Shown here in pieces: positions 18,022 through 47,790 of a DNA stretch of 61,189 nucleotides. Location of the stretch: contig JBDRVV010000017.1 in assembly GCA_039802005.1 (NCBI GenBank), positions 1-61,189 on the forward strand, read 5' to 3'. The stretch's first letter is position 1, and each line of letters begins with the position of its first letter. The notes under the pieces are model-generated. The model searched no databases and was not told the origin of the DNA. It saw nothing but the letters and a program-made list of their open reading frames with translations. Origin of the DNA: a candidate division WOR-3 bacterium (GTDB taxonomy: Bacteria > Hydrothermota > Tepidihabitantia > SM23-42 > JAOAFX01). The translations under genes and the position numbers were made by a program.

Positions 18022-18066
18022 CAGGATACATATAGTTTCGTAAAGTCCATGGGAATTTTGTAAAAT

Positions 18067-18126
18067 TGTAGTGGCAGACCTTGGTCTGCAGAAAGTATCG
18101 TAGTGGCAGACCTTGGTCTGCAGATA
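18067..18126. repeat. Two tandem GTAGTGGCAGACC palindromes
   Basis: Two near-identical copies of GTAGTGGCAGACC-TT-GGTCTGCAGA lie about 30 bases apart between sucD and the secA promoter. They match the element at 1-30 in reverse orientation. No gene is present in the 204-base spacer. Confidence 0.8.
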
Positions 18127-19061: not shown

Positions 19062-19074
19062 AATGTCTATTGAA

Positions 19075-19215
19075 ATTCTAATACCGAAATTCTAAATACT
19101 AAACAATCTTTAAATCCTAAATTCCAATTATTCAAACTAATTAATTGTTTGAAAATCTGGAATTTGAATACTGGAATTTGTTTCGGATTTCGGATTTCGA
19201 ATTTCGAATTTTGCG
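19075..19215. repeat. AAATTC/TTCGGATTTCG dispersed repeat between sucC and sucD
   Basis: A low-complexity element made of GAAATTCTAAATAC and TTTCGGATTTCGGATTTCGAATTTCG motifs facing each other, with an ATTAATTAATT-type centre. The same family occurs at 39587-39700, inside the giant gene at about 22995-23012 and 25605-25650, and in part at about 44893-44930. It separates sucC and sucD, which are normally adjacent. A 60-codon open frame across it is an artefact of the repeat. Confidence 0.75.
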
Positions 19216-20556: not shown

Positions 20557-23500
20557 TTATCGCACCAGTATGAACTTCTTCTTTAATTCAATTCCGGGGC
20601 AATCAAATTTCACAAAATAGACACCACTTGCAATATTACTAACTATAAAATTATGCCTGCCCTTTTCCTTCATTCCCCGTTCTTTTGAGACCAATCTGCC
20701 ACAGGCATCATAAACAGAGATTTCTATTTTCTGTGAAATTAAAAGGTTATAGGTAATTGAAAGGCAGTTCGTTGGGCTTGAACCGAAATTGACAATAATA
20801 TGTTTTAGCATCTCATCTCCCTGAGGTCCACCTGTAATTCCCCTATCTGTTGGTTCATAGATTACTACACCCAAGTTCGGGTCATCGTAGTAGTCATAGA
20901 TGTAATATTCAATAGATTCAGGCTCTGGGGGATACCAATAATTATGCCGGGCATCAATTGAATCCGGTGTATTGTTATAGATGTGATATAAGAAACTGTG
21001 CTCAAAGACATTCTCTTTCCCAATATACAGTGAACCATCCCTATTCTCTTTGTCATTCTGAACCATGCCCTGAACTTGATTCACGGGTTGTTTCAGCATC
21101 TCATCTTTATTAAACGTTTCACGGTTCACGGCACACGTTCCATAATTCTTCCCTTCTTCACCCTTTAAGTATATCCCAATTCCGTTCTCTTTTATTAAAT
21201 TCTCCTTCACATTACCACTCATATCAACGATCACCAGACCAGTGTCATTACTGGTAATTTTGTTGTCCTTTATTGTTCCTCCACCACCAATTACCATGAT
21301 GCCTGTTTTATTTTTGGTGACTACAAAATTCTTTAGCGTGAAGTTCTGGGCAGAAATCTTGATTCCTGTCTTATTATTGCTCAAACTACAATCCTTCGCC
21401 TCAAATTTATTTCCGAGAAATTCTATACCACAATCTGAGCAGAAGTCTATCCTTGAATCCTTTATCTCAAAATTATTGCAATCAGAAATCTCAATCCCAT
21501 TCGTTGCATACTCAACCACCCAATCCTTTATCTCCAACTTTATGCCTTTTGCCTTTTTGTCATGCTGAATCGGATTCCGCATCTCTCCACCCTTATTGAC
21601 ATCACAAGTGATCTTACCCCTGTCATTTTTATCCTGATACCCCGGTTTCCTGATACCCTTTCCACTGATACCCTGATTTTCTGATATCCTTTCTCTCCGC
21701 CCATCTGCGTCATATTCAGCGCCCATCCGCACCTTTGCGAAACGAATTCCATACCAATCCCCGGGCTTCGGCTCATAGGCATCGGAAGTAAACAAAATTC
21801 GTGTATCATCCTGACGACCATCTGGATTGAGGCTTTCAGTCTTATTTTTCGGAGTAGGGACTTCAATCCCGTGATATAAGATGTTATCTGCTTGGTAAAT
21901 CAAACCGCTACAACTTTCCGTTCCACGGTTCACGGTAAACGTTTCGCGATTCTTCCCTTTTCTCCCTGTCTCCTTGTCTCCCAATCTCCCCATCTCTATC
22001 TTTCCATATACTATCAATTCAGCCTTTGTTGTATCCACGCCACCCTGCGCCCCATCCATACCAGCAGTAAAATAGACCTCAGTCCCGGGCTCAATCGTTA
22101 AGGTCACACCCTCGGGCACAATCACATCGCCGCCAACATTGACAATCCCGCTCCAGACCGTGCCCGGTTCAATCTCACCCCAGGTTGAAAAGTATTTGAA
22201 GTCAACCATTCCACAATTGGGATTTTCATCATCATCATAGATATGGGCATCGATTGAATCCGCATTGGTATAGTTCCAGTAATTTCCCTGTGCCATTATC
22301 ATAAATGGTGAATGATTACATAAAAAGTAAGGACCAATAAGTTCACCATCATAAATCCTGTTTTTGCCATCATCAATTGTTGTTTGATTCTCAAGATTGC
22401 CAAGATTCAACAATTGGCTTTTTGATACATTATGCCAGACCTGATAGCGTTGATTGTTGGTGATATTGTTTCCGGTGATGATTGCTTCAAAGTTTGCAGA
22501 AATATCACCACAAGCATAGAGACCAACGACATTGTGATTGAACGAGTTATTAGCAACGATTGTTACAGTGGGCGATGATACCTCTTCATAGTATTTTGCA
22601 AAAGTCAATCCCACTTTATTGTTTGAAAACTGATTATTGATTATGGTTATCTTCGTCCCCGGTTTATATGCATACCAGCCCTGATAGATTCCAGCAAGTT
22701 CAATCACTGGCCAGGGATACCAGCCATTATTAGTGAAATTATTCCTATCAATCAGAATATCAAATGAATCGCCAAAGAAATCAAAGCCATGGAATTCATT
22801 TGAATCAAAGAGATTATCCGTAACCTCACCGGTTATCCACCCTGAGGTATAAATCCCCCGGAAGTTATCAATAATCTGATTGCCATTGATATGAATATGT
22901 GAATTGGAGAGAATTATTCCAGTGCAAGTGAAAAGGAGTGAATCCTCTCCGCCTTTAGCACGCCTTGGAGTGTGTGAATTTGTTTGGAGTTTGGATTTTG
23001 GATTTCGGCATCTAAATTCCTCCAATTTATCTTCAAATATCTTATTCCTGTGGATATAATTACTATCAATCACGACTTTAGAGTTTTGACAGTGAATTCC
23101 CGTGTAGAAATTTTCTTTAACTGATGAATGCCTGATTGTTACATCGCTATTATTTTCAATCACCACGCCAATACCGTTGCTGTCAATCAAGGACCTTATA
23201 ATTTCACCCGAGGCACGGTCAAAACTAATCCCATAATTGCTTCGGGCTATGTGGCAGAGACCCAAATCACCGATACTATTTCGAGTAAATCTGATTCCAT
23301 ACCAGGGCAGAGAATCGGTATAAGATGTGAACCTTATCGAATCTCCAATAATATCACCGCGGGCATTCAGGCTACCCTTTATTATCAACTCGCACATATC
23401 CGGGTCATTTCCTGATCCCCGGTCATCAGGATACTGGAGATAGACATCCGTCCCCGGTAGTAATGTGAGCGTAACTTTCTCTCTTACCGTCACATCACCG

Positions 23501-26500
23501 GTGATAAAGACATTTCCGGACCAAATAGTATTTTCAGTAATCTCCCCACTCTGCCAGTTGGGGATATGGGCAGTGATATCCGTATGAACGATATTGTATG
23601 TGTCACCTTGCCCCGATGTCCATACCAGATAAATCGGCACCGCACTCCTCTGTTGTTCCCCTTTTTCACCCTTATTCACCCATTTTCTCCCTTGTTCATC
23701 CTTCATTGCACCCTGCACATAATATTCACTACTTGCCGGTGTCGGTATTACTGGGTGAGGCGCTGACCAATTAAATCCATCAAAAAATGTCCAGTAAATT
23801 CTATAGTCATTGCTTACTTTTTCACTATAGAAAACCTGTGAGCCACATAGAATAATCGGCGCCATTGAACTATCCGGCGAATTGGAAAGATTTTTCAATT
23901 CCGACCAACCAAATTGCCCTTCAATTTTCCCTTTGCCAAAGGATAAAACAGTGGGATTTTTCTGGATTTCACCCTTCCTGGTTTCATTTCCTATACGAGC
24001 GTAGCGATCCGGCATCTCCTGCAAGCGAAGCGATCCTGCAAGTCCCGCAAGGGACGATACTGCATCTCCTGCATCTTCATTTTGCCCTGAATTGCCTTTA
24101 ATTGGCTTGTATGTAAAATAAATGTCGTTGAAAAGTTCAAATACCACACTCAACCGATTCTTATATTTCTCAATGCACGGCCGTTTTGCATCTATCTCAC
24201 CAACAAACCCCGCAGTCAAATCCTCTTTTGGTGCAAATTCAGTTCCATCCCAATATGTATACTGAATATGGCCATATTTATCCGACCAGACGATATGAGG
24301 ATAATTATTATCATCCAAAACAATCGATGGCGATGCCATCTCCTCTTCTGGCGGCCAGGGCGGCGGTGAGACGAGCACCGCAGAGTCAATTACCATCTCT
24401 GTAATACTCAATGGGTCAATAAGCAGGAATTTTAAGAGATATAACTTCCAGTACAATATCTGTCCAACCGTCTTTTCTTCTTCAATCACCACAAAACCAG
24501 TATCCTCTGAACAAACAAATGAAGGGGCGAGAATACGGGAATTGGGGCTATATGGTCTCTCCCAGATTATCAAAGGTTCCTCCCAGATTTCACCAATCCC
24601 TTTGCGATACCACAATTTATGACGGGCATAGACAGGCACTGAGCCCGAAATCCAGACTTCGTGGATTGTATTTCGTTGATAAGATACTGCTGGATAAGCC
24701 CCCTCCCCAATAATTCTTTCTCTGTTACCTCTGCCTCTGTCATTCTGAACTTGTTTCAGAATCTCATCTGCCCTTCCTCTCCTCTTTAGTCCTCTTGAAC
24801 CTTCTATCGCCTTAAATTGCCCCAAATTGCCTTCAATTGCCTCATCCATTGCATAAACGATATAATCCCCGCACCGATAAAAGGTATGAAGGCGACCCGC
24901 ATCATCAAGCACCAATCTTTTGGCATTATTACTCGCCGTCGCCAATCTGGTATCTGAAGTCCTATATGGCAGTCCAATCTCAGCCTTGGCATATTTTATC
25001 CCATACCTCGGTTGGTTTCCATAGACACAGACAGTGTGTAGTCTTACGCCGTCAAAGAATGCCTTGGGTGCAAAACAATTCTCTAAAGTGGAAGTAATTG
25101 TGGTCTTATACCACTTATTGTATTGCCATAGGCCATAAACTAAATCAAACTTTGAATCGGGCTGAATTGCGGGCTCTTCAATCCAGACTATTAAATAAGG
25201 CGAAAATACAATCGGATTTTTTGATATACGATTTGGTGAATTAGAAATATTTTCTATTGCGCCGAACTCTGAGTAGAACCATTTCTTTCTATGATAAATC
25301 TCGCCAGAATTCTCCCAGACCACATCAATTATCTCTCCATCAACCGAAATTTTTGGACTATTGCCGTTTCCGAGAACTATCGGTTCTGTCCAATTCAGCA
25401 TCCCAAACCCCTTTCGTTCTTTGAAGGAGGGGCCATCCTTCCAATCCCTTCGTCCTTGATGGGAGAAGGTTAGGGTGTCATTCTGAACAATGTCATGCTG
25501 AACTTGTTTCAGCATCTCGTCTTGTTTCAGAATCTCATCCACCAAAATCCCCTCGCCCTTAATGGGAGAGGATAAAGGTGAGGGTGAATTTGGAATTTGA
25601 CTATTGAAATTTGTTTCGGATTTAGAATTTCGGATTTCGGATTTACCTCCCCTTGATTTCCCTTTATAGCCCTTAATCCCCCCTGATAACCCCTGTATGT
25701 AATAAACACTATTCCCTTTCTCATAAACAATCTGCGGAATGCTATCCCAAACCATCGCCAGATGGGGATTCTTCAAGAACTCACTAACATCATAAATTAT
25801 TTCTTCAACTTCAAAATTCCCATTTGGTGGCGCACCAATATGATAAACCCCGAACATCAAATGACTCACCGGGTCCATTCCCGCATATTCCCTTTCTTCA
25901 AATGCCAGATAACCATAATCACCTTTTACTACAAAAGAAGGAGACTGCAGAGCCCGGGTAGTCTGGGTATAAATACAGACCGGGACTCCCCAGCCAGTTA
26001 ATTCTTTATACCAATAACCATTTCCCTTTTTGTAGACCAGATGCACCCGGTGCAATTCATCAACCGCAATCGCCGGATACTCACCAAAATCAATCATTTG
26101 TTTTGCTTGCCAGGTATTGCCCTGGTCAACAGAGTACGAATAAAATATGCTATCCTCGGAAGTAAATACAAAATGTAAAACGCCATTATCATAAACAAGT
26201 TTTTCACCATTCCCGGCCGTCGCCGTTGAATCACTTGATGTAAAATAGCAGATAGAAAATGGATTATTGCTCATATCCGTACCTGTATTATTCGCAATGT
26301 CTTTTGAGACAACTTTTATCAAGCAATTATCCGATGGATGCCCAGGCACAGTCCAGTCATACTGATAAGAAGCGATCGGCTCAAAGATTGTATCTATTCC
26401 CGTTACATTATGCCACTCCGCACCACTGTTGGTTGAATAGTAGATGGTCTGTAGTCCAACCTTTGTTGTATCTATTGCATTCCAGATTATTGGATAGACA

Positions 26501-29500
26501 CTGCCAATCTCTAACTTCTCACCACCATTCGGTTGAATGACCTGAACAATCGGTGGTTCGGTATCCTCACCAATGAATAGCCTCTTTATCGTTCCGCCAT
26601 GGTCGCCAACCCATTCTGAGCGGGCAAAATGCTCAAGACGGAGTTCCTTTATAACCTCCGGTATCGCATTGTATTCAGCAATATAGTCACTGCGTATGTT
26701 TCTATAGCACCACTCCCAGGTATTATAATGCGGGGTCGGGTCGCCCATATCTACCCAGCCGGTATTCTGCCACCAGTTTGAGGCATTCTTTGCATAATAC
26801 AACCACCTGTCCTGCCCTTGATTATCATGAATCAACAAGCCCAATATCAAACTGTGGTCTTTATCATACTGCTCCCAGTAGACTATCGTGTGTTCTTCTA
26901 CTGGAAGATCTGTGATATCATTTCGGAGTGTTGGGTGATAATCTGTCCAAAATGCACCTTCGCCCTGATTTCCGTTGTTATCAATATAAAGCCTGACCGA
27001 ATCACCATCAGCAATGCACTTCAAAATGGCATTTGGGTCATTGCCTAAAATTTCCGCATACCAATGATTATTATAAGGAAACTTGCGCCAAACTTTAATA
27101 TCGTCAATATAGGCACGAAACTCACCGGTCTCTGCATTTTGTCCATCATCGTAGACAACTAAAATATTATCCAAAATCTCACCCGCTGCAGGTGTAAGAT
27201 TGAATATATACTCCACCCATTGGTCCTGGTCCGAAACAGTATGGACTGCTGGGTGAATCCAAGTCCCGTTCTGGTCAATTATCCAGCCGTATTGATTATG
27301 CCAGAAATTCTTAAGATTCAAACCGCCCCAGGTTATCCCATCCAGAGAAATATGACCATAATTGCCAGGTGATTTGGCAACATTTATTTTAAAAGAGATA
27401 AAAGTCGGATCATCAGTAATCAATAGATTTTCATCAAAGACCTTAAAGATCGCATAACTGTTAGCATCTGTACTTATGTCCTCCCCTTTTATAAGATATG
27501 CCCATTCATTACCATTGGGCGGAACTGGTAATTTATAAAGTCCAGCCGAGTCTGATGTGATGCATTGCTTATTTTTTTCTAAAATGCAATTTTCTAAAGG
27601 TTGCGTATGGGTAGGCTCAAAACCTGAATATGAGAAAGCGCTTCTATCTTCAGTAAATCTTAAATCCTTTATTGAGCAACCATGGTCGCCGCTCCAATCT
27701 TTTCTTGAATAATGGCCGAGTCTCACTGCCTTTAAAATCTTTGGCGAAGTGCCATATTCATTATAAAAATCATTATAGACATTTCTTGAAAAACCTTCCC
27801 ATTTGTTATAATTGTATCTCTGGGTTGGGTCACCCATATCAACAACCCCAATTTCCGACCAGTGATTTGGGGCATTCGGCGCATAAGTTAGCCAGCGGTC
27901 ATCCCCCTGCTCATCCTGAATCAATAGCGAATATAAAGATGCATGGGCTAAATCATATTGCTGCCAGTAGATAAGCAATTTTTCTCCAACCGTGATATCA
28001 GGAATATCTTTTCGCAGCCAAGGCACACTGCTCCAAAATGTATCAGGATATGCACCCTGATTATCCAGCATTAATCTCACACCATCATCGGATTGTGGTT
28101 CAAACCGAACACTGGCATTGGTATCATTGGGTGCAACCTCAAAATACCAAGTATTTTCCAGTGGGAATTGGGAGAATATCTGTATGTCATCAATATAAGC
28201 AACGAAGTTACCGGTCTCTTGTGGGTCCCGGTCATCATAAATGAGTTCAAGATAGTCAATTGTCTCACCCGCCGCAGGATTGAGGGTAAAGATATATTGA
28301 ACCCACTGTCCTTTTGGTGCGCTATGCCAGGCTGGATGGATAATCTGCGAGGTCTGGTCTATTATCCGATTGTATTTTGTCCAGGCCCTCAAAATCTTGC
28401 CTGATTTCGTATGGCAATCAACACAGATATGACCGGAGTCCGTAGGCGCTTCTTTTACATATATCCAAAAGGAAAGATAGTTATTACTGGTGATTGGAAA
28501 GTCATAGTCCAGTATCTTAAAAATGACATAATTATTGCCTGATGTCCCATAGTCATTGCCATAAATTTTATACATCTTATCACCAGAGTGTGGATTTACA
28601 CCGCCCTCTGGACCACTCCGCAGAGCACCATAATTATTTACACCATCAACACCAATAAGAGTGTTTTCCAGACATGGTGCATCGCCATCTTCAAAACCGC
28701 AATAATTGAAAGTAGTAATTGAAAAAGTAAAATCACTCTCATCCCTTGTTTTATTTCCCGCATAATCCGAAACCACGACCAGTATTTTACAATCACTTGA
28801 ATTAACATAAGGCACAAGCCAGTCATAACTTCTTGTATCACCAGAAAGATTAACCACAATTGGCTCCCAAGTATTACCACCGTCCGTTGTAAGCAAAATA
28901 GAATCAATTTTTGCAATCACAACATTGTCCTCAGCAGTCCAGGTAATAGTATGAACTTCACCAGCATAGAAACTCTCGCCTCCGTTTGGAAAGACCATAG
29001 TAGTCTTTGGTAGTATTTCTACTTTCCTGAATGTAAGATAAAATTGGGTATTGGTTGAATTGCCTTCAGTCCAGATAACATAAAGAGCATCTTTTTGTGG
29101 AGAAATATCAGCATGAGGGTAAATTGACCAGCGGCCGGCAGTTTGAGATAAATTTACTGGTGGCGATGCCTGTCCATCATACACCTCGGCGTAATAAATG
29201 TTTTTGTTTTTCTCCCAGACGACATAATTATTATTAGCAACAATCCCCCAGTCACCATTATCTATAATCACAGGGGCCGATAAAATGTAGTTTGCACCAT
29301 CCCACACGAGATTATGATAATCAATTTTATACCCACCTGATGAATTTGTCAAAACTAAACTAAGAGTATCAGTGCTACCAGAAAGATATGGGTGAAGACC
29401 ATACGCAAGCCATTGCTCATCTGACCACGAACCCCCTGAAAAATTTCTATATCTAAAGTAAATGTCCGCATAATCTTCATATGTGCTGTAAACGAGGGCA

Positions 29501-31755
29501 AGTCTACCTGATAAATCATAGGCAACACAAGGATTGTAGCGCCAGTTTGCGATGGGACGTTGGCTATAAGCACTGGTTTGAAGCGAGAAACTTGAAACCC
29601 AGATATTGTGATTCGGCCCTTCCTCAATCGCAACAAACCCACTATCCTGGGCAATAATAAATGAAATTGGCCGCATCGGTGCTGGTTGGAGATGTTGGTC
29701 AGGACCTTCATCTTTAGGATAAGGACCATATTCTACTAAAAAGATTTTCTTGTGTTGCCATGAGGTTGTATAATAGGAATGATAAAACTCCAAGACCCAA
29801 TACCACGGTTTGGGCATACCATAATACCAGGTATTATACCATTTACCCCAGACAATGTGTGATTTGCCCTGTTGGTCTAAAGCAATCGCTGGATAATTTT
29901 TATCGCAACCAGCAACACTCTGGATAACCGAAAATGTATTGCCCTCATCGGTAGATAATGCATCCTTTACATCGTGCTGATAATTATCGTAGTAAACAAT
30001 ATGGATATTCTGTGGATTTTGAGGGTCAACTGCAATCTTATTGCCTGTATTATATGCAGTCATCAATGAATCATCGGTTGCTAAGGCACCAGCAACCTTC
30101 CCTTTTTCATTTGAAAAAGATGAGATGTGGTTTTGGTCGTCAACAGCAACAACGCGATAGGTATATAGAGTGTAAAGTGCTACAATATTATCAGAGAAAG
30201 TATCAGTAGGCGCATTTACCCAACCATAGCCCTCTTGCCAGCCCCCATTGTTTACTTTTCTATCAATTCTAAATTGATTAGAATGGGCCGATTTATCTTG
30301 CCATTTAATAACCAACCGATGTGGAGTTTCAAATCTATCCGCTACGGAGAGTAAACTTGGTGCATTAAGCCAGGGGATAGAGACTGATATAGTGGCAGAA
30401 GGAGACAATAAATTCCCTTGTTTTGCGCACACCTCATATTCATAGATTGTGCCTCTATTGACTGTATTATCCACCCAGTAGGTTTGCTCTGGTGAGGAAG
30501 TGCCAATTTGGGACCAGGAACCTCCTGCAATCCTTCTTCTAATTACATAACAATCAATCACCTTGGGCACCGAATAATCCCAGCGGATTTTTACTTCGTC
30601 TTCTTTGGCATAATCACAGCGGAGATTGGTAACCGGGTCAGGGGTATAACCAACTTCGTTGAAGAATTTGGCAATGAGCTCAGCCGTAGATTTACAAGCA
30701 AGGGGCATCATTGCTTTTGCGACCATTGTTTTTTGGTCATTATGGCCACCCCACATCCAGGATGCCCAGGTGGGCAAGCCATCGCAGAAATAAAGATAAC
30801 CCCTGGCAGTATTCCCAAGATCAACAACTTTATCACTCACATCAAAATTGGGATTTAATGCAGCTGAATTGGGATAAAATTGAGTTTCCGAAAGCGCTAC
30901 AACATCGCACGTATCCTCATACCAGCCATGACCAATTTGCGCCATTAATCCATAAAGCCCGGCAGGCGCGCGATGATTGGGTTGAACACCATCCTGAATA
31001 AAATGACATGCTCGTCCTAACCAGCGCAAAGCCTGTGTTCTATTACCAGAATTCCATTCTTGTTTTGCCCAATTGTAATACTCTTCGCATATATTATGCG
31101 CATGACCAATTGTCCAAAAAGTCTGCGGCGATGTGCTACGCCCGTGGGCTAATGGGCAGAATCCGAGGTAAATGGTATTTTTGTTACCAAAAGTTGCAAA
31201 ATTATCTGGCCACATCGCACTAACTGCAAGATTCTGGGCATATTTGTGGTCTGGATAATTTGTCTTATCAGTTACAGTGAAAACCGATGAACCAATCAAT
31301 CCCCATACCCCAGAACTCAGTGCTTCGCCAGAAGTTATTCCGCCACCCCAAAACCAAATAATTGCGCCGATTGTAAAGAGTGTGCCTGTGATATCCTTAA
31401 GTCCATTTTCATTTGCCCAACATCTAATTGTATCACCAAGAACAAAACTACCTGGCAACCGGTCTATCAAATATCCAACCGTAGTCTGCTGCACTTTCAT
31501 TGTCGGATGGACCTCTGTGCCCCAGAGACACATATTGGATGGAGCACTGTCTGGATACTGAAAAGTAGTGGAATAAGGGAAATTAACGCGTTCGTTGAAA
31601 ATGTTATAGTGAACATATTTAGCATAGCCAGAATAATTTGCATTATTTAAGAGGTATGTTGTTTTTATTGTAATTCGGCCATGAGTATTGCCCCAATACC
31701 CATTTACACAACACCAAGGCAATAACATAATGAATACAATCAATAATTTTTTCAT
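20557..31755 (-). CDS. Giant secreted multidomain protein: phospholipase C-like head, FN3/propeller/beta-helix body, T9SS sorting domain
   Basis: About 3,732 residues from the ATG at 31755, which has an AAGGGG ribosome site and opens a clear signal peptide (MKKLLIVFIMLLPW); the same frame is open for another 27 codons upstream. Domain order: zinc-dependent phospholipase C/S1-P1-like head (about 20-370, with WGNTHG and CHFIQDGVQPNH near 245); two FN3 domains (370-560); a propeller-like region (560-920); a GGE...WTAEDN Ig-like domain; two jelly-roll modules (about 1020-1730); a second Ig-like domain; more propeller repeats; two right-handed beta-helix regions opening with TIWSGNV and TVWSGIV (about 2740 and 3200); and a type A sorting domain ending in FILVR. 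At least eight dispersed repeats are inserted in frame. Last gene of a four-gene operon. Substrate unknown. Confidence 0.85.
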   Translation of the reverse strand: MKKLLIVFIMLLPWCCVNGYWGNTHGRITIKTTYLLNNANYSGYAKYVHYNIFNERVNFPYSTTFQYPDSAPSNMCLWGTEVHPTMKVQQTTVGYLIDRLPGSFVLGDTIRCWANENGLKDITGTLFTIGAIIWFWGGGITSGEALSSGVWGLIGSSVFTVTDKTNYPDHKYAQNLAVSAMWPDNFATFGNKNTIYLGFCPLAHGRSTSPQTFWTIGHAHNICEEYYNWAKQEWNSGNRTQALRWLGRACHFIQDGVQPNHRAPAGLYGLMAQIGHGWYEDTCDVVALSETQFYPNSAALNPNFDVSDKVVDLGNTARGYLYFCDGLPTWASWMWGGHNDQKTMVAKAMMPLACKSTAELIAKFFNEVGYTPDPVTNLRCDYAKEDEVKIRWDYSVPKVIDCYVIRRRIAGGSWSQIGTSSPEQTYWVDNTVNRGTIYEYEVCAKQGNLLSPSATISVSIPWLNAPSLLSVADRFETPHRLVIKWQDKSAHSNQFRIDRKVNNGGWQEGYGWVNAPTDTFSDNIVALYTLYTYRVVAVDDQNHISSFSNEKGKVAGALATDDSLMTAYNTGNKIAVDPQNPQNIHIVYYDNYQHDVKDALSTDEGNTFSVIQSVAGCDKNYPAIALDQQGKSHIVWGKWYNTWYYGMPKPWYWVLEFYHSYYTTSWQHKKIFLVEYGPYPKDEGPDQHLQPAPMRPISFIIAQDSGFVAIEEGPNHNIWVSSFSLQTSAYSQRPIANWRYNPCVAYDLSGRLALVYSTYEDYADIYFRYRNFSGGSWSDEQWLAYGLHPYLSGSTDTLSLVLTNSSGGYKIDYHNLVWDGANYILSAPVIIDNGDWGIVANNNYVVWEKNKNIYYAEVYDGQASPPVNLSQTAGRWSIYPHADISPQKDALYVIWTEGNSTNTQFYLTFRKVEILPKTTMVFPNGGESFYAGEVHTITWTAEDNVVIAKIDSILLTTDGGNTWEPIVVNLSGDTRSYDWLVPYVNSSDCKILVVVSDYAGNKTRDESDFTFSITTFNYCGFEDGDAPCLENTLIGVDGVNNYGALRSGPEGGVNPHSGDKMYKIYGNDYGTSGNNYVIFKILDYDFPITSNNYLSFWIYVKEAPTDSGHICVDCHTKSGKILRAWTKYNRIIDQTSQIIHPAWHSAPKGQWVQYIFTLNPAAGETIDYLELIYDDRDPQETGNFVAYIDDIQIFSQFPLENTWYFEVAPNDTNASVRFEPQSDDGVRLMLDNQGAYPDTFWSSVPWLRKDIPDITVGEKLLIYWQQYDLAHASLYSLLIQDEQGDDRWLTYAPNAPNHWSEIGVVDMGDPTQRYNYNKWEGFSRNVYNDFYNEYGTSPKILKAVRLGHYSRKDWSGDHGCSIKDLRFTEDRSAFSYSGFEPTHTQPLENCILEKNKQCITSDSAGLYKLPVPPNGNEWAYLIKGEDISTDANSYAIFKVFDENLLITDDPTFISFKINVAKSPGNYGHISLDGITWGGLNLKNFWHNQYGWIIDQNGTWIHPAVHTVSDQDQWVEYIFNLTPAAGEILDNILVVYDDGQNAETGEFRAYIDDIKVWRKFPYNNHWYAEILGNDPNAILKCIADGDSVRLYIDNNGNQGEGAFWTDYHPTLRNDITDLPVEEHTIVYWEQYDKDHSLILGLLIHDNQGQDRWLYYAKNASNWWQNTGWVDMGDPTPHYNTWEWCYRNIRSDYIAEYNAIPEVIKELRLEHFARSEWVGDHGGTIKRLFIGEDTEPPIVQVIQPNGGEKLEIGSVYPIIWNAIDTTKVGLQTIYYSTNSGAEWHNVTGIDTIFEPIASYQYDWTVPGHPSDNCLIKVVSKDIANNTGTDMSNNPFSICYFTSSDSTATAGNGEKLVYDNGVLHFVFTSEDSIFYSYSVDQGNTWQAKQMIDFGEYPAIAVDELHRVHLVYKKGNGYWYKELTGWGVPVCIYTQTTRALQSPSFVVKGDYGYLAFEEREYAGMDPVSHLMFGVYHIGAPPNGNFEVEEIIYDVSEFLKNPHLAMVWDSIPQIVYEKGNSVYYIQGLSGGIKGYKGKSRGGKSEIRNSKSETNFNSQIPNSPSPLSSPIKGEGILVDEILKQDEMLKQVQHDIVQNDTLTFSHQGRRDWKDGPSFKERKGFGMLNWTEPIVLGNGNSPKISVDGEIIDVVWENSGEIYHRKKWFYSEFGAIENISNSPNRISKNPIVFSPYLIVWIEEPAIQPDSKFDLVYGLWQYNKWYKTTITSTLENCFAPKAFFDGVRLHTVCVYGNQPRYGIKYAKAEIGLPYRTSDTRLATASNNAKRLVLDDAGRLHTFYRCGDYIVYAMDEAIEGNLGQFKAIEGSRGLKRRGRADEILKQVQNDRGRGNRERIIGEGAYPAVSYQRNTIHEVWISGSVPVYARHKLWYRKGIGEIWEEPLIIWERPYSPNSRILAPSFVCSEDTGFVVIEEEKTVGQILYWKLYLLKFLLIDPLSITEMVIDSAVLVSPPPWPPEEEMASPSIVLDDNNYPHIVWSDKYGHIQYTYWDGTEFAPKEDLTAGFVGEIDAKRPCIEKYKNRLSVVFELFNDIYFTYKPIKGNSGQNEDAGDAVSSLAGLAGSLRLQEMPDRYARIGNETRKGEIQKNPTVLSFGKGKIEGQFGWSELKNLSNSPDSSMAPIILCGSQVFYSEKVSNDYRIYWTFFDGFNWSAPHPVIPTPASSEYYVQGAMKDEQGRKWVNKGEKGEQQRSAVPIYLVWTSGQGDTYNIVHTDITAHIPNWQSGEITENTIWSGNVFITGDVTVREKVTLTLLPGTDVYLQYPDDRGSGNDPDMCELIIKGSLNARGDIIGDSIRFTSYTDSLPWYGIRFTRNSIGDLGLCHIARSNYGISFDRASGEIIRSLIDSNGIGVVIENNSDVTIRHSSVKENFYTGIHCQNSKVVIDSNYIHRNKIFEDKLEEFRCRNPKSKLQTNSHTPRRAKGGEDSLLFTCTGIILSNSHIHINGNQIIDNFRGIYTSGWITGEVTDNLFDSNEFHGFDFFGDSFDILIDRNNFTNNGWYPWPVIELAGIYQGWYAYKPGTKITIINNQFSNNKVGLTFAKYYEEVSSPTVTIVANNSFNHNVVGLYACGDISANFEAIITGNNITNNQRYQVWHNVSKSQLLNLGNLENQTTIDDGKNRIYDGELIGPYFLCNHSPFMIMAQGNYWNYTNADSIDAHIYDDDENPNCGMVDFKYFSTWGEIEPGTVWSGIVNVGGDVIVPEGVTLTIEPGTEVYFTAGMDGAQGGVDTTKAELIVYGKIEMGRLGDKETGRKGKNRETFTVNRGTESCSGLIYQADNILYHGIEVPTPKNKTESLNPDGRQDDTRILFTSDAYEPKPGDWYGIRFAKVRMGAEYDADGRRERISENQGISGKGIRKPGYQDKNDRGKITCDVNKGGEMRNPIQHDKKAKGIKLEIKDWVVEYATNGIEISDCNNFEIKDSRIDFCSDCGIEFLGNKFEAKDCSLSNNKTGIKISAQNFTLKNFVVTKNKTGIMVIGGGGTIKDNKITSNDTGLVIVDMSGNVKENLIKENGIGIYLKGEEGKNYGTCAVNRETFNKDEMLKQPVNQVQGMVQNDKENRDGSLYIGKENVFEHSFLYHIYNNTPDSIDARHNYWYPPEPESIEYYIYDYYDDPNLGVVIYEPTDRGITGGPQGDEMLKHIIVNFGSSPTNCLSITYNLLISQKIEISVYDACGRLVSKERGMKEKGRHNFIVSNIASGVYFVKFDCPGIELKKKFILVR
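21034..22008. repeat. In-frame dispersed repeats in the 3' part of the giant gene
   Basis: Three blocks inside the coding sequence look like intergenic repeats, not protein domains. At about 21051-21140 is a TTCTGAAC...CAGCATCTC element plus a GTTTCACGGTTCACGG element. At about 21567-21720 is a CATGCTGAATC element plus CCTGATACCC...TTTTCTGATATCC motifs, also found intergenically near 46970-47000. At about 21900-22005 is a second GTTCACGGTAAACG element plus TCTCCCTGTCTCCTTGTCTC, also found at 38060-38105. The reading frame stays open through all of them. Confidence 0.75.
22956..25690. repeat. In-frame dispersed repeats in the middle of the giant gene
   Basis: Further repeat-derived insertions within the coding frame lie at about 22956-23022 (TTTGGATTTTGGATTTCGG family), 23640-23712 (CCCTTTTTCACCCTTATTCACCC), 23988-24100 (repeated GCGAAGCGATCCTGCA and GCATCTCCTGCA units), 24715-24840 (TTCTGAACTTGTTTCAGAATCTCATC) and 25395-25690. 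The last is a compound of three families: CATGCTGAACTTGTTTCAGC, a CCCTCACCTTTATCCTCTCCC type, and TTTCGGATTTCGG. They encode Lys/Glu/Asn-rich linkers between propeller-like segments. Confidence 0.75.
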
Positions 31756-31771: not shown

Positions 31772-32791
31772 TTAATCCAACTCAAATTTACTAAGTCCTG
31801 AAAGTGTAAGAAACCATTTGTTATTGTGCCGGTCAATGAAAATTCCTTTTACATATTCATCTAATAACCCTGAATTTCCCGCATTACTATATCCTCCTTG
31901 ATTATAACTATGATATTCTGTAATATTCCCTTGTGAATATTTTACAATGCCTAAATTTGGATCAAGCCAAAGATCATTATTTGTATCAAAAGCGAACTTA
32001 CCTGGACTACAAGCTAAGTAGTCAATTTGCTCTTTTTTCCAAATTCCGTTAATAAACTTATAAAAAATTAAGTAATAAGGTTCTGGTTTAGATAGACCAG
32101 TCCATATTACGCCAGTTCTATCACAAATCACACCCGAAAAATAGGTAACTGAATCACCGGTCGAAGGTGAATTGGGTATCCAAAATTTCACCGTCCTATC
32201 GAATTGAGCGAAACCTTTTGGTGTGAGACATATAACATTGTTATCTCCATCTATTTCCACTGTAATCATGTAATTATCGGGCAAACCATTATTTACGGTG
32301 AATGTATCCCACTTTACACCGTCGTATTGCATTATACCCCTTATAGTTCCAATCCAGATTTTACTACTTTTATCAATTCTAATTACCGTTACCGAATCAC
32401 TAACTAATCCAGATTGTTTGTTATAAACTTTCCACACAGTTCCATCATAAATTGCAAATCCTTTGTCTTTGAAGCCAACATAAACTTTGCCATTGTCTGC
32501 GCCATAGACATCACTTACAATAACCGGTTCACTTATACCAATTACGCTCGCCGGTATTCTTTGCCAGTTTTTCCCATCAAAGCGAAATAACCCTTCGGTT
32601 CCGTTGACTTCACCACCCATCCAGATATTCCCCTGCAAATCATCAGTCATACAGTTTGGGAAAACATCAGGATAATTCACCCAGCCAATCATCTCCTCGG
32701 GAGAAGGAGGTTGAATAACCTCCTGAAGCATATCCGGCAAGCCCCAACAACTTATAAAAAATAATGTCCATATATAAAAGAACCACTTCAT
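31772..32791 (-). CDS. Secreted two-component-regulator-propeller-like protein
   Basis: A 339-residue protein with an N-terminal export signal (MKWFFYIWTLFFISCWG). The Cys after FIS could be a lipidation site, but the lipobox is weak. The rest is built of repeated blades with NIWMGG, KVYVGFKD, KIWIGTIRG and DLWLDPN motifs, like the periplasmic Reg_prop propellers of hybrid two-component sensors. There is no kinase or membrane domain, so it is a stand-alone propeller. It overlaps the upstream gene by 4 bases (ATGA) and lies 16 bases ahead of the giant gene. A binding or scaffold role for the secreted giant is possible. Confidence 0.7.
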   Translation of the reverse strand: MKWFFYIWTLFFISCWGLPDMLQEVIQPPSPEEMIGWVNYPDVFPNCMTDDLQGNIWMGGEVNGTEGLFRFDGKNWQRIPASVIGISEPVIVSDVYGADNGKVYVGFKDKGFAIYDGTVWKVYNKQSGLVSDSVTVIRIDKSSKIWIGTIRGIMQYDGVKWDTFTVNNGLPDNYMITVEIDGDNNVICLTPKGFAQFDRTVKFWIPNSPSTGDSVTYFSGVICDRTGVIWTGLSKPEPYYLIFYKFINGIWKKEQIDYLACSPGKFAFDTNNDLWLDPNLGIVKYSQGNITEYHSYNQGGYSNAGNSGLLDEYVKGIFIDRHNNKWFLTLSGLSKFELD

Positions 32792-34439: not shown

Positions 34440-34467
34440 ATTATACATCAGATTTGCCAATTGTCAA
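34440..34467 (-). promoter_or_regulatory. Promoter of the envelope/giant-protein operon
   Basis: Perfect -35 TTGACA (34462-34467) and -10 TATAAT (34440-34445) on the - strand, 16-base spacer. The TGA that ends the upstream truncated gene is part of the -35 box, so the promoter lies right at the point where that gene is cut. Confidence 0.8.
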
Positions 34468-37400
34468 GCCCCGAATTTTTCACCCCCATCACCCTGTGGG
34501 TCAATGATTAGCCTTACCGAATCGCCCTGGGCAACAAAGTTCATATTGAAGTTCGGGTCACCATAAGTTGGGTCAGTTGGAAACTTTTCACAATGCCAGG
34601 TATTGGGAATTGGAAAACTATCAAGAACTTCTATATCATCAATATACCCTTCAAAATAACCAGTCTCTGTATTCTGATGGTCATCATAAATCAAAACCAG
34701 ATAGTCAATTGTTTCTTTTACTGCCGGATTAAAAGAAAAGACATACTGATACCACTCGCCTTTTGGTGCTTTATGCACTGCCGGATGAATCTTCTGTCCG
34801 GTTTGGTCTAACACATAACCAAATCTATTCCAATTTCGCAAAATCTCGCCGTCCTTTGTATAGGCATCTAAGCAGATATGACCAGAATCGGTTGGTGCAT
34901 CTTCAATATAAAGCCAGAATGAGAAATAGGTAGAATCGTGCACGACAAAATCATACGGAAAGACCTTGAAGATCACATAACTATTTTGAGCTGATGCGGT
35001 GTCTGTCCCATAAATTTTATACATAAAATTACCCGTATGAGGCAGGCAACCATTCATGCCACCACTTACCCTTATCGCCCCGGTATTAATTACACCCTGA
35101 CTACCCACAATCACATTCTCAAGACACCCAGGGTCGGTATATTCAAACCCTGAATAGGTAAAATACCTTGTCCCAAAGACCCCATCCGATTCATCCCTTG
35201 ACCGATTGCCACTGGCATCTGATGCAACAACTTTGATTTTATATTGCTCGCACCATTCAGGCACAGTCCACTCGTAAGAAACTGTGGTTGCGGGCAAATT
35301 CACCGCAATCACATTCCAAGTCTGTCCAGCATTCGTTGAATATAAAACACTATCAATCCTTCCTATCTTTACATTATCCGCTGCATACCAGCAAATATTT
35401 ATCTTCTGTTCCACAAGCAAACTCTCACCACCATTAGGATAAGAGACAATCACCTGCGGCGGAATTGTATCAATCAAAAGATTCAGATTATCAAACCAGG
35501 CTTCACCCACAAATGCAGGATTGCCAAACATCATCACCCGAATTGTATCCTCATAGGGACGAGTGGTAAGACTATCACAGACATAGGTCCAATCAGTGTT
35601 TCCTGAGACATTCCCAAAGTCCCGATGGTGGTTTGTATCTGGATGCTGATGCCAGACACCAAATGCTAAATTCGCATAACCGGCACTTGCTTCTGTTTTT
35701 ATATAACCCTGAAGCCAGTATAATTTATTCGGCTCAACCGGAATCTTTTGTTGATAAAAACCAAAATAACTTGCTGAAGCACTTCTTTTAATATGCGCCG
35801 AAAACTGCCCATTCTGAACCTCTTGCCAGTCCGCCTCAAATAAATCACCTGTGCCATAAGGCGTCCACAAATAAGGTTTATCCTCCGAAACCTCCTCAAA
35901 ATTGGGATTGAATACCAATTCTTTCGTGGTCGTAAATGGTCCAACCTCTTTTGCACAGGACATCCCTGCACCATCATAAGCCTCTATCTTTATCTTCAAT
36001 CCCGAAACGAGTGTATCTGGCACAGTCCAGTTTAATTCATAAGTAGTACCTGATAAATCCCCACCAATCTGGTTATAGGTTGTCCCATTATCAAGGCTAT
36101 AATAAACCCTGTGTTTTACTACACCAACATTATCCGAAGATACCCATTTTATTAAAAGCGGCAGACCTACACGCAGACGCTGACCCAAAATTTCTTCAGT
36201 AGTGGGATAGACAATCTCTAATTGGGGTATGACCCTTATCTTTGCAGTATCAATCGTATAAGGCGCCGCATCACCCTCGGTCCAGATTAAGCAAATATTC
36301 TCGCCATCAAAACAACCCTGTGGAAACTTTGACTTTGCCGGGGTATTTTTCACACAGATTGGGTCTGACCAACCACTCGCCAATCTTTCTGAATAGTAAA
36401 TATCCCAGTTATTATTTACACATCGGTGATAAAGAATGACCCCCTCACTTATGATCTGCCCGGCACCACAGGGCATACTCTCATCACCAATTATATGCTC
36501 GGGCTCGGGTTGCCAACCCCCACTATCTTTTACCCGGAGGGTAAGGCAATAATCTGGTGCATCATCAAACATTGCCTCAGTAACAAGAAGGTAGGTTTTA
36601 TTATTTATTCGCTTTAATGATAAATGGGAAATCCAATTTCCTATCTCCAACCCAGGTGCTTCTTCAACATCTGACCAATTTCCATTGATACGCTCACGAT
36701 AATGGATTTTAGTATAATCCGAACGCCACGCAACATACAAATTCCCAGATTCATCCTTATCCATCGCCGGATAACCGTATGCAAAGGAAGTGTCGAAGAG
36801 TATTGGGGTAGTGGCGTCATATTTTCCAGTCTCAAAATTACAACGCAACTGTGTGTAATAAATGTGGCTACCCAAAATAAATATTACATGCACTGTATCC
36901 ATCACTATCTGCGCCGTAAATGGATGAAAAGGCGGTGCTTCATTTTGATAAAACTCTCCTCTAAAAATACATACTGAATCAAGCCAATCGCTACTATCCG
37001 GGTTAAAATAGGCAAAGTGGATTGTGCTATACCACAGTGGATTAGGTGGATATCGCTTCCGATTTCTATATGAAAAAACCATCACAGGTAAACCATTTTC
37101 ACGAATATCTAATTGACAAAATCCCGCATCCGTTTCATACATCTCCTGTCCCCAATAACAGGCAGTAATAGGCCCTTCCCAGTTTAACCCATCGGTTGAC
37201 CTTGAGGCGACTAATAGGCTCTCTAATCCATAAGCCATGTGATAGCGATGATTATCTGGGTCATACAAGACCTTTGGCTGATATGCAGTTGCAGAATCGC
37301 GGGATGTCTTTAAGTGAGGCGCAACCGTTGCCCCATAAACTCCAGTATAGGCTGAATAGCCGGCTGGTGGTGTGCTCGTATATGCCCTGCACCGATAGAG

Positions 37401-38052
37401 ATAGGTACTCTCAGGTTTGACATTGTAATCAATCCAGGTTACCCAGTTGCCGGAACTCGGTTGAGCAGGTAATGTTGTTTCAATATGCCAGGGCTCGCCA
37501 GTTGGTGGACACCTGCGCCAGACCTCAAAATTTGTCTCATAATTTGACTTATCCTGAAATTGCACAACAATCCTATCCGAGGCCGGTGAATGGACACGGA
37601 GTTCGTGATAAGGTGCATTGAGCAAGGGTGTAGTAACTGAAATTGGGGCACAAAAGTCAGAATAATACTTTTGTCCCTGAAATATACCATAACTTCGGAC
37701 TTTGTAATAATAGGTCGTATTTCGCTCAACAGTCTCATCATAAAAACTCTTTGACCCTGGTCCCCAATAACCTTGAGCAATCATCTGCCAACTTTCACCG
37801 GATTTCATTCTCCATACCTCAAAATTTAAAAGTGTTCCACACCGCCAGTCTAACCCGACTTTTGATTCATCAACTGCAAAGGCATAAAGGTCATAAGGGG
37901 CATTGAGCTGGATGGTGAAGTAATCACTGATGTCGTCAACTTTTATAAAGTTATCCAACCATGCCCGCACAAAGAACCGGCAATAGGGCGAGTTCACCTG
38001 TGGCATTGCAAATTGAATCGTCTTGGTTTCGCCATCGCCGTAATACTGATAT
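34464..38052 (-). pseudogene. Truncated relative of the giant secreted protein (both ends lost)
   Basis: The open frame runs 1,180 residues from an internal ATG at 38006 and is open a little further, to an in-frame stop at 38052-38054. It has two FN3 domains, a propeller-like region, an Ig-like domain, a carbohydrate-binding-like jelly roll, a second Ig-like GGE domain and one jelly-roll module very like those at about 1020-1370 of the giant (shared CLENV/T, MYKIYG, APTDSGHIC, ETIDYL.LIYDD). It has no signal peptide and stops in the middle of the module, at GDSVRLIIDPQGDGGE, where the giant continues. There is no beta-helix or sorting domain. A possible lost N-terminal piece is readable in another frame at about 38107-38178. 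Probably a decayed gene; if expressed it would stay in the cytoplasm. Confidence 0.75.
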
Positions 38053-38054
38053 CA

Positions 38055-38293
38055 TCCAGTTTCTTGTCTCCATTTCTCCCTTTCTCCGTATCTCCTTGTC
38101 TATTTTTTCACGCCCCATTATGACTCACATCATCATCAATAATCCAATTCTTGATGAATTCAAGGGTATAGGTGTAACCTCTTTATAAAAGCGGGAGGTA
38201 AGATAAAAGTAGTGTATAAAGTGCTTGAAAAAAATTAAAAAATTGATATAAAAAAAGAATATGAATGAAAAACAATAAGAAAGCGCCAGTCCA
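38055..38293. repeat. Repeat insertion and remnant DNA upstream of the truncated secreted gene
   Basis: At about 38060-38105 is a TCTCCATTTCTCCC/TCTCCGTATCTCCTTGTC element of the family inserted in frame in the giant gene at about 21960-22000. It lies exactly where the frame of the truncated gene stops. Beyond it, a 24-codon stretch on the - strand (about 38107-38178) reads like secreted-protein sequence but in a different frame. I see no intact gene here. Confidence 0.6.
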
Positions 38294-41967: not shown

Positions 41968-42076
41968 CGTAGGGCAAGGCTTTAGCCTTGCAAAAGAATC
42001 TGCTACCCGTAGGGCAAGGCTTTAACCTTGCAAAAGAATCCGCTACCCGTAGGGCAAGGCTTTAGCCTTGCATACT
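41968..42076. repeat. Three tandem 40-bp repeats with GCAAGGCTTTAGCCTTGC palindromes
   Basis: Three copies of CGTAGGGCAAGGCTTTAGCC... begin at 41968, 42008 and 42048, exactly 40 bases apart. Each holds a GCAAGGCT/AGCCTTGC palindrome (the middle copy reads TTTAACC), and the spacers AAAAGAATCTGCTACC and AAAAGAATCCGCTACC are nearly identical. The third copy runs into the 5' side of copA. Another copy of the element is at 47701-47724 and a diverged one is near 5805. Confidence 0.9.
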
Positions 42077-42100
42077 TGCATAAAGGAAAGAAGAATTAGA

Positions 42101-44335: not shown

Positions 44336-44349
44336 TGGGTTGGGGTTAA

Positions 44350-44428
44350 GATGCTGGATATTTTAAAATACCTAAAAGTCCAAAAACTTGTCCTGATGGA
44401 AATCAGGATGCCTAAATACCTAAATTTT
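44350..44428 (+). repeat. Direct repeat, left copy, flanking the YHS gene
   Basis: A 79-base sequence (GATGCTGGATATTTTAAAAT...CCTAAATTTT) that recurs almost unchanged at 44726-44804 in the same orientation. It contains a TCCTGAT/ATCAGGA palindrome. The two copies bracket the YHS gene and its leader. Confidence 0.88.
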
Positions 44429-44704: not shown

Positions 44705-44725
44705 TAGTAAATGGACTTGGGCTGG

Positions 44726-44804
44726 GATGCTGGATATTTCTAAAATACCTAAAAGTCCAAAACCTGTCCTGATGAAAATCAGGATGCCTAAATCCCTAAA
44801 TTTT
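44726..44804 (+). repeat. Direct repeat, right copy, flanking the YHS gene
   Basis: Second copy of the element at 44350-44428, same orientation, with a few base changes. Together they form a repeat-gene-repeat arrangement around the YHS gene. Confidence 0.88.
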
Positions 44805-45000: not shown

Positions 45001-45143
45001 GCGGTTACTGAAAAAGTCCTTTATCTATGCTTCCGGTTTATTAATTCAGAATGTCATTCCGAACTCGTTTCGGAATCTCAAGAGATGCTGAAATAAATTC
45101 AGCATGACAGGTTGTTGCTCTAATTGACTTTTTCAGCTACCGC
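45001..45143. mobile_element. MITE-like element with terminal inverted repeats
   Basis: A 143-base non-coding element. The left end GCGGTTACTGAAAAAGTC (45001-45018) matches the reverse complement of the right end (45126-45143), GCGGTAGCTGAAAAAGTC, at 16 of 18 positions. Inside is a GATGCTGAAATAAATTCAGCATGACA palindrome plus GTCATTCCGAACTCGTTTCGGAATCTC. ATTT borders both sides (with one extra C on the right), a possible short target duplication. No transposase inside, so it would need one in trans. Confidence 0.75.
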
Positions 45144-45471: not shown

Positions 45472-45732
45472 AGATAGCTGACTCCTCTCCACTTTTGAAG
45501 CTTAAATTCCCAATATTGGATAGAATAGCAGATTTTCAATATTCTACATTAAACTAAAAATTGAATAAGCCCTAATCCTCGCCCCTCCCCTCTCACTTAA
45601 AAATGGAGAGGATAAAGGTGAGGGTCCCTTGAAATTTAAAACCTTTTATTGCACGATAAATCCTCCAGTTACACTTCGTGACAAAATCCATCAAGAATGA
45701 GAAAGACGGAGAGGCGCAGTAAAGATAGCAGT
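45472..45732. repeat. Repeat-bearing spacer before the VapBC pair
   Basis: No gene seen. At about 45570-45630 is a CCTCGCCCCTCCCCTCTCACTT...GGAGAGGATAAAGGTGAGGG inverted repeat of the family found in the giant gene (25547-25585) and at 40988. The phrase AGTAAAGATAGC occurs at 45468-45479 and again at 45718-45730, a short direct repeat bordering the region. Confidence 0.55.
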
Positions 45733-47668: not shown

Positions 47669-47700
47669 AGCAGGGCTCCAGTCTTGCAGACCCACGCCTT

Positions 47701-47724
47701 GTAGGGCAAGGCTTTAGCCTTACA
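47701..47724. repeat. GTAGGGCAAGGCTTTAGCCTTAC palindrome
   Basis: A single copy of the element found three times at 41968-42076, here between the desulforedoxin and arsC genes. Confidence 0.75.
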
Positions 47725-47790
47725 ATAAAAATAAACAAACTCAAAGATTTGCTCTACATTGCTACAGGAATTACGAAAAGGGATTAGATA

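Follow-up and report, generated by a model that had tools for sequence, protein, structure and literature searches.

Accounts of repeats within genes have usually dealt with one or two events at a time, dispersed among many open reading frames (ORFs). For REPs of the GTAG and CGTC types, Di Nocera et al. (2013) reported copies in the ORFs of several species, sometimes two per ORF, with intragenic clusters encoding up to 43–82 aa, and proposed that these are neutral insertions into loops. The CGTC superfamily, to which RPE-4 and RPE-6 of R. conorii belong, is characterized by a CGTC tag, often TGTC, at one end, an AT-initiated stem of 8–9 bp and a loop of 4–5 nt (PMC3733652), and its members have been reported without a dedicated transposase. 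The enterobacterial elements RU-1, RU-2 and RU-3 are likewise described as MITE-like repeats of 103–168 bp inside ORFs (PMC2759123). Here we report that, in a candidate division WOR-3 bacterium, intergenic repeats of this kind have very probably been added, repeatedly and in frame, to the gene for a giant secreted protein, and kept where they form a hydrophilic loop or linker.

The window analyzed is the whole 61,189-nt stretch of contig C17, from a genome of 2.54 Mb in 62 contigs. It contains an 11.2-kb gene on the minus strand (20557–31755) whose ATG at 31755 opens a signal-peptide-like N-terminus (MKKLLIVFIMLLPWCC), followed by repeated domains, a beta-helix and a C-terminal type IX sorting tail; the frame can be extended mechanically to a TTG at 31836, and residue numbers below are counted from that TTG. 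The protein matches Pfam Beta_helix (2e-22) and Por_Secre_tail (4e-7), its C-terminus scores 30.4 bits against NCBIfam TIGR04183 (cut-off 23), as expected of a type A sorting domain, and its N-terminus shows a weak Zn-dependent PLC-like match. It is probably a type IX secretion cargo. The neighboring gene at 34464–38006 (minus strand, 1180 aa) is paralogous to the middle part of the giant protein (51% over ~330 aa), and a check of the insert-family matches placed none inside it.

A first-pass annotation of the window had assigned at least eight blocks of the coding sequence to repeat families also found between genes. All eight are present at about the places it gave, in the C-terminal half of the gene (25.40–25.69, 24.72–24.84, 23.91–24.10, 23.63–23.71, 22.91–23.03, 21.80–22.00, 21.55–21.72 and 21.05–21.17 kb; here A to H). 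Searched against their own genome, they match 60 places outside the blocks at E ≤ 1 (best E 4.5e-14), whereas a control of the same size, drawn from the rest of the gene, gives 5 (best E 0.02); a chance likeness between blocks and intergenic DNA is excluded. When mapped against ORFs of at least 150 aa, the outside copies prove to be mostly intergenic or at ORF edges, with the sorting tails discussed below as the clear exception. Among the six intergenic partners named in the annotation, local BLAST recovers those at 19075 (E 4e-9), 45570 (4e-6), 45001–45143 (1e-5 and 3e-4), 46965 (0.002) and 39587 (0.003), and the match at 38060 is weak and only suggestive (0.14).

The annotation's further statement that several unrelated families share this one gene is borne out, with at least five families represented. 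The first is a 28-bp hairpin of the CGTC REP type (TGTCATNCTGAANNNNNTTCAGNATCTC), with 28 copies in the genome and none in the reversed control; its reference copies form an inverted intergenic pair at 45052–45109, which folds into two stable hairpins (z −4.5). The second is the heptamer (AATCCGA)n, with 106 overlapping matches in the genome, none in the control, and intergenic reference copies at 19073–19211. The third is CCCTCACCTTTATCCTCTCCC, whose other copies are all intergenic or at the ends or edges of ORFs; the fourth is a composite of GGGAGACAAGGAGACAGGG with CGTTTCACGGTTCACGG; and the fifth is a GTAG palindrome found at 19 genome places versus 1 in the reversed control. Minor families with few copies each, found in C, E and G, make up a sixth group. 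Additional intergenic GTAG-tagged palindromes lie at 18065–18124, 41968–42087 and 47700–47739 (GTAGTGGCAGACCTTGGTCTGC; GTAGGGCAAGGCTTTAGCCTTGC), some of them as tandem 40-bp units. A stretch without long ORFs also holds two intergenic 93-nt copies, 78% identical to each other, at 44336–44428 and 44712–44804.

The blocks, all given on the minus strand, differ in makeup. Insert A (25396–25686) joins a heptamer repeat, the CCCTCACC family, a half REP and a complete CGTC REP, and makes the protein longer than its orthologue by a net 94 aa (an insert of about 95 aa). Its heptamer portion (25589–25644, minus strand) has intergenic copies at 19073–19211 and on contigs C22, C28, C32, C33 and C52, and its CCCTCACCTTTATCCTCTCCC portion (25551–25588, minus strand) recurs elsewhere at 10 places with E < 1e-3, one of them 45586–45625. 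The complete REP (25491–25518, plus strand) retains its 8-bp stem and is read by the gene as DEMLKQVQHD. Insert B (24721–24840, net +39 aa) carries a second CGTC REP with an intact stem (24738–24765, plus strand), read as DEILKQVQND. Insert C (23914–24102, net +56 aa) has family copies at C35:3106 and C23:3697. Block D (23629–23712) is small and has a single 82% match, at C14:17243–17287, the extreme end of a sorting-tail ORF. Insert E (22909–23034) lies in the beta-helix region. Insert F (21799–21996) combines the GGGAGACAAGGAGACAGGG and CGTTTCACGGTTCACGG families with a degenerate GTAG-type REP-like sequence (GTAGCGGTTTGATTTACCAAGC; 21890–21911, minus strand) that forms no stable hairpin, and 76 bp of it (21915–21990) are 83% identical to intergenic DNA at C20:1850–1924. 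Insert G (21547–21720, net +62 aa) contains the GGTATCAGG family and a CGTC REP mutated on one side of its stem (21558–21585, plus strand; read as EMRNPIQHD). In insert H (21046–21171, net +39 aa), the CGTTTCACGG family is accompanied by an expanded variant of the CGTC REP (DEMLKQPVNQVQGMVQND). Near the sorting tail, GATGAGATGCTAAAACA at 20797–20829 looks like the relic of a half REP (GDEMLKH); the orthologue has YSDAQLEK there.

That orthologue comes from Ca. Stahlbacteria CSMAG_1267 (genome G015), a member of another family of the order and the closest named genome with the gene, which sets the phylum as WOR-3/Stahlbacteria. It is a 3713-aa open frame that aligns with the giant protein on both sides of every block, at ~40–62% identity over thousands of residues. 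Inserts A, B, C, G and H are absent from it, different inserts occupy sites E and F, and D barely differs; in the more distant genome G027, too, A, B and C are missing. The proposal that the blocks are insertions therefore stands for seven clear insertions or insert sites, and is doubtful for D at 23.65 kb (net 7 aa). Homologues from distant lineages sharing the block residues, which would have marked the blocks as ordinary protein sequence, were looked for and not found: the orthologue from the other family is without five of the blocks and, at two further sites, contains inserts that differ. In-frame placement within an ORF together with absence from orthologues, the hallmark used for Rickettsia palindromic elements, is thus what we observe here. 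At site E, the insert of the orthologue includes its own GTAG REP together with a variant CGTC REP. Both superfamilies have thus invaded this gene in each of two lineages, at differing positions, and inserts were acquired independently in each. The orthologue (L057 4433–15571) begins with a module that is CehA/McbA metallohydrolase-like, at a score below cut-off, and the window protein has the PLC-like start instead, so the two proteins differ in their N-terminal domains. Two genomes of the same genus contain at most weak partial matches to the giant gene, which was found in no close relative; insertion points can therefore be placed only approximately, short of the exact base, and target duplications cannot be read.

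Over the 1308 nt of inserts, the used frame contains no stop codon and the other five contain 16, 45, 15, 18 and 18 (112 in total), so the frame has been kept by selection. It is open through all eight blocks, as the first-pass annotation had it. The same annotation called the encoded peptides Lys/Glu/Asn-rich; this holds for Lys (2.3x the rest of the protein) and Glu (1.6x), but Asn is not enriched (6.7% versus 7.3%). Arg (2.6x), Gln (2.0x) and Gly (1.6x) are also overrepresented, Trp and Tyr are very scarce, and mean hydropathy is −1.15, compared with −0.34 for the rest of the protein. Of the six frames of the CGTC REP itself, three contain no stop (CHAELVSAS, VMLNLFQHL and EMLKQVQHD), and every intragenic copy we found, in A, B, G and H and in two proteins of other genomes described below, uses the EMLKQVQHD frame, the sole hydrophilic one. 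If the six copies were independent and unbiased, such agreement would have a probability of about (1/3)^5, a figure we take as suggestive only. By folding, the REP hairpins are intact in A and B and decayed in G and H, pointing to insertions of different age.

Structural models are consistent with the inserts forming loops, although they do not prove it. An AlphaFold model of residues 2740–3759, for which two sequences were used, varies in quality, with a mean pLDDT of 45; in it, inserts E (model residues 196–237) and H (817–858) appear as low-confidence stretches adjoining confident beta-helix strands, and F and G fall within a wholly low-confidence area. A model of residues 1860–2760 (pLDDT 30) is uninformative, and we base no claim on it.

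We asked how far the giant gene stands apart as a recipient. Genome-wide, 3 of the 28 CGTC REPs lie deep inside an ORF, and all three are in this gene (0.12 expected under a uniform distribution, Poisson P 3e-4); one more, at C26:13086, overlaps no more than the beginning of an ORF. Other proteins nevertheless carry in-frame copies, and the giant gene as the only acceptor is rejected. In genome G065, MiaB contains a CGTC REP in frame that 15 homologues lack, including that of a congener at 77% identity (a sixteenth row, G085, has no alignment in that stretch and is left out of the count), and in G013 a flavodoxin-domain protein contains another; the MiaB (L165/L191) and flavodoxin-like (L163) copies read (D/Y)E(I/M)LKQVQ(N/H)D. 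In the genome studied here, about 17 proteins carry an IRNPKSE-like peptide (FQIPNKSEIRNPKSEISLKIYDVSGR) within or just before a type IX sorting tail. The AATCCGA heptamer encodes IRNPKSE in all three forward frames, and heptamer-bearing sorting tails occur at C3:61500–77500 (L098) and on C14 (L096), C22 (L147), C7 (L141), C2 (L104, L149) and C58 (L148). Of the 43 heptamer clusters, 18 are found no more than 300 bp from a sorting tail, compared with ~4.5% of the genome that is this close; the enrichment is approximate because it draws on the heptamer places listed and on an incomplete list of tails. Neighboring paralogues on C3 share the copies in their tails, so the tail copies are probably not independent.

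The first-pass annotation saw the giant gene as a landing site for several families. The families do share the gene, but it is not their sole acceptor, and targeted insertion need not be invoked: the simplest reading is tolerance, in which a long, modular extracellular protein offers loops, and inserts already present offer neutral targets. Inserts A, F and H, being mosaics, point to the latter. We propose that short intergenic repeats, namely CGTC REPs, GTAG REPs akin to those beside a RAYT-like gene and several non-palindromic families, would have been added repeatedly to the gene of this probably type IX-secreted protein. An insertion would survive if the frame stayed open and the resulting peptide was hydrophilic, probably unstructured and situated in a loop or linker; once established, it could act as a neutral landing place on which later repeats pile up, giving rise to mosaics. 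The near-neutrality of the inserts and the disorder of the loops are expectations of this model.

An adaptive origin, in which selection for loop growth or diversity in an exposed surface protein (against phage, grazers or proteases, or for length variation) drives the accumulation, seems unlikely to us. That inserts cluster in a single giant secreted protein and at sorting tails would fit it, as would the growth of inserts at the same two sites in two lineages. However, single REPs also reside in MiaB and the flavodoxin-like protein, where neutrality is the simpler explanation, and inserts decay in place.

It is improbable that the gene family or the sorting tails are instead the source from which intergenic copies derive. 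The proportion of heptamer clusters found at sorting tails speaks for such a direction and makes tail-to-tail copying likely for that family. However, the CGTC REP, which is distributed patchily through the phylum (21 of 80 genomes, up to 143 copies in G013, no control matches), abounds in genomes in which no full-length match to the gene was found (G025, 84 copies; G065, 55 copies); moreover, the blocks are absent from outgroups. The idea that the blocks are ordinary low-complexity protein sequence with a coincidental likeness to intergenic DNA has their K/R/E/Q/G-richness in its favor, but it is refuted by the search of blocks against control and opposed by the DNA hairpins with intact stems within the coding sequence and the absence of blocks from the orthologue, leaving it very improbable. 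Equally remote is a decaying pseudogene that gathers repeats, which the two same-genus genomes without an orthologue-like match might suggest: more than 3700 codons are open, insert stops avoid the used frame, and similarity to an intact orthologue extends over thousands of residues.

The genome encodes two IS200-like Y1_Tnp genes as candidate movers of the repeats. One of these, the RAYT-like gene at C49:4606–5022, contains the HUH-type motif DHLHTIF (HLH), scores marginally against Y1_Tnp (23.3 bits; cut-off 23) and has GTAG REPs on both sides, four copies in all. This REPtron layout suggests that GTAG elements could be mobilized by the C49 gene, and RAYT-mediated transposition is plausible for this type. 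The GTAG copy in insert F, with two mismatches and an unstable hairpin, departs from an intact REP, and we take it to be a degenerate relic. No convincing CGTC REP lies beside either Y1_Tnp gene, and the view that a RAYT moves the CGTC REP is unsupported. Most inserts exceed any single element in length, which makes copying by microhomology or template switching as possible as transposition; with no close relatives that carry the gene, the two routes look alike.

The first-pass annotation likened the inserts to Rickettsia palindromic elements, and the anatomy of the 28-bp hairpin supports this comparison by placing it in the superfamily of RPE-4 and RPE-6. Its tag is TGTC in most copies and CGTC in C18:2354. 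The stem is 8 bp and AT-initiated (ATNCTGAA/TTCAGNAT) with a 5-nt loop, within the 8–9 bp and 4–5 nt typical of the superfamily, and shows paired changes such as CCCTGAA/TTCAGGG and GCCGAA/TTCGGC. The unpaired tail is mostly CTC, CTA or CTT, and CCT or CCA in a few copies; the published tail mostly fits CCA. Dimers in opposite orientation, another superfamily trait, occur at 45052/45082 and on C2, C8, C42 and C48, and G013 has regular pairs.

The literature we searched contains no description of in-gene REPs in WOR-3/Stahlbacteria, and no paper covering both Stahlbacteria and repeats was found. REPs within genes are already known. What this case adds is the phylum, a connection to sorting tails, and a secreted protein in which eight blocks mix both REP superfamilies with non-palindromic repeats and whose orthologue has inserts of its own at two of these sites. 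At least five families, differing in age, have gone into a single gene, for which the orthologue provides a before-and-after control; genomic clutter has become protein here on an unusual scale. It is a natural setting in which to test how non-coding DNA turns into protein sequence and which proteins tolerate this. More tentatively, repeat acquisition may be a general route to exposed loops of secreted proteins in WOR-3/Stahlbacteria; on this reading, which we rate as somewhat less likely than not, REPs and heptamers would repeatedly become linkers of type IX cargo and of the sorting tail itself, aided by the lack of stops in more than one frame of these repeats.

Set beside the described systems, this locus shares features with each. 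It resembles Rickettsia RPE-1, RPE-4 and RPE-6 in carrying short palindromic repeats in frame within genes (PMC10969869), kinship to RPE-4 and RPE-6 being judged on superfamily anatomy. The Rickettsia elements are spread over many metabolic genes, whereas all three strictly intragenic CGTC REPs of this genome fall in one secreted giant gene, where they lie inside mosaics with unrelated repeats. The RU-1, RU-2 and RU-3 elements (PMC2759123) are longer than those found here. As in REPtrons, where RAYTs are IS200-like, the GTAG REPs flank a candidate Y1_Tnp gene with an HUH-type motif and, as in published cases, CGTC REPs keep no evident company with the two Y1_Tnp genes. The GTAG and CGTC REPs of Di Nocera et al. 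(2013) likewise occur within ORFs, and the phyla named there for CGTC repeats do not include WOR-3; unlike in those cases, both superfamilies and several non-palindromic families meet here in a single ORF, in eight blocks and with an insert of ~95 aa.
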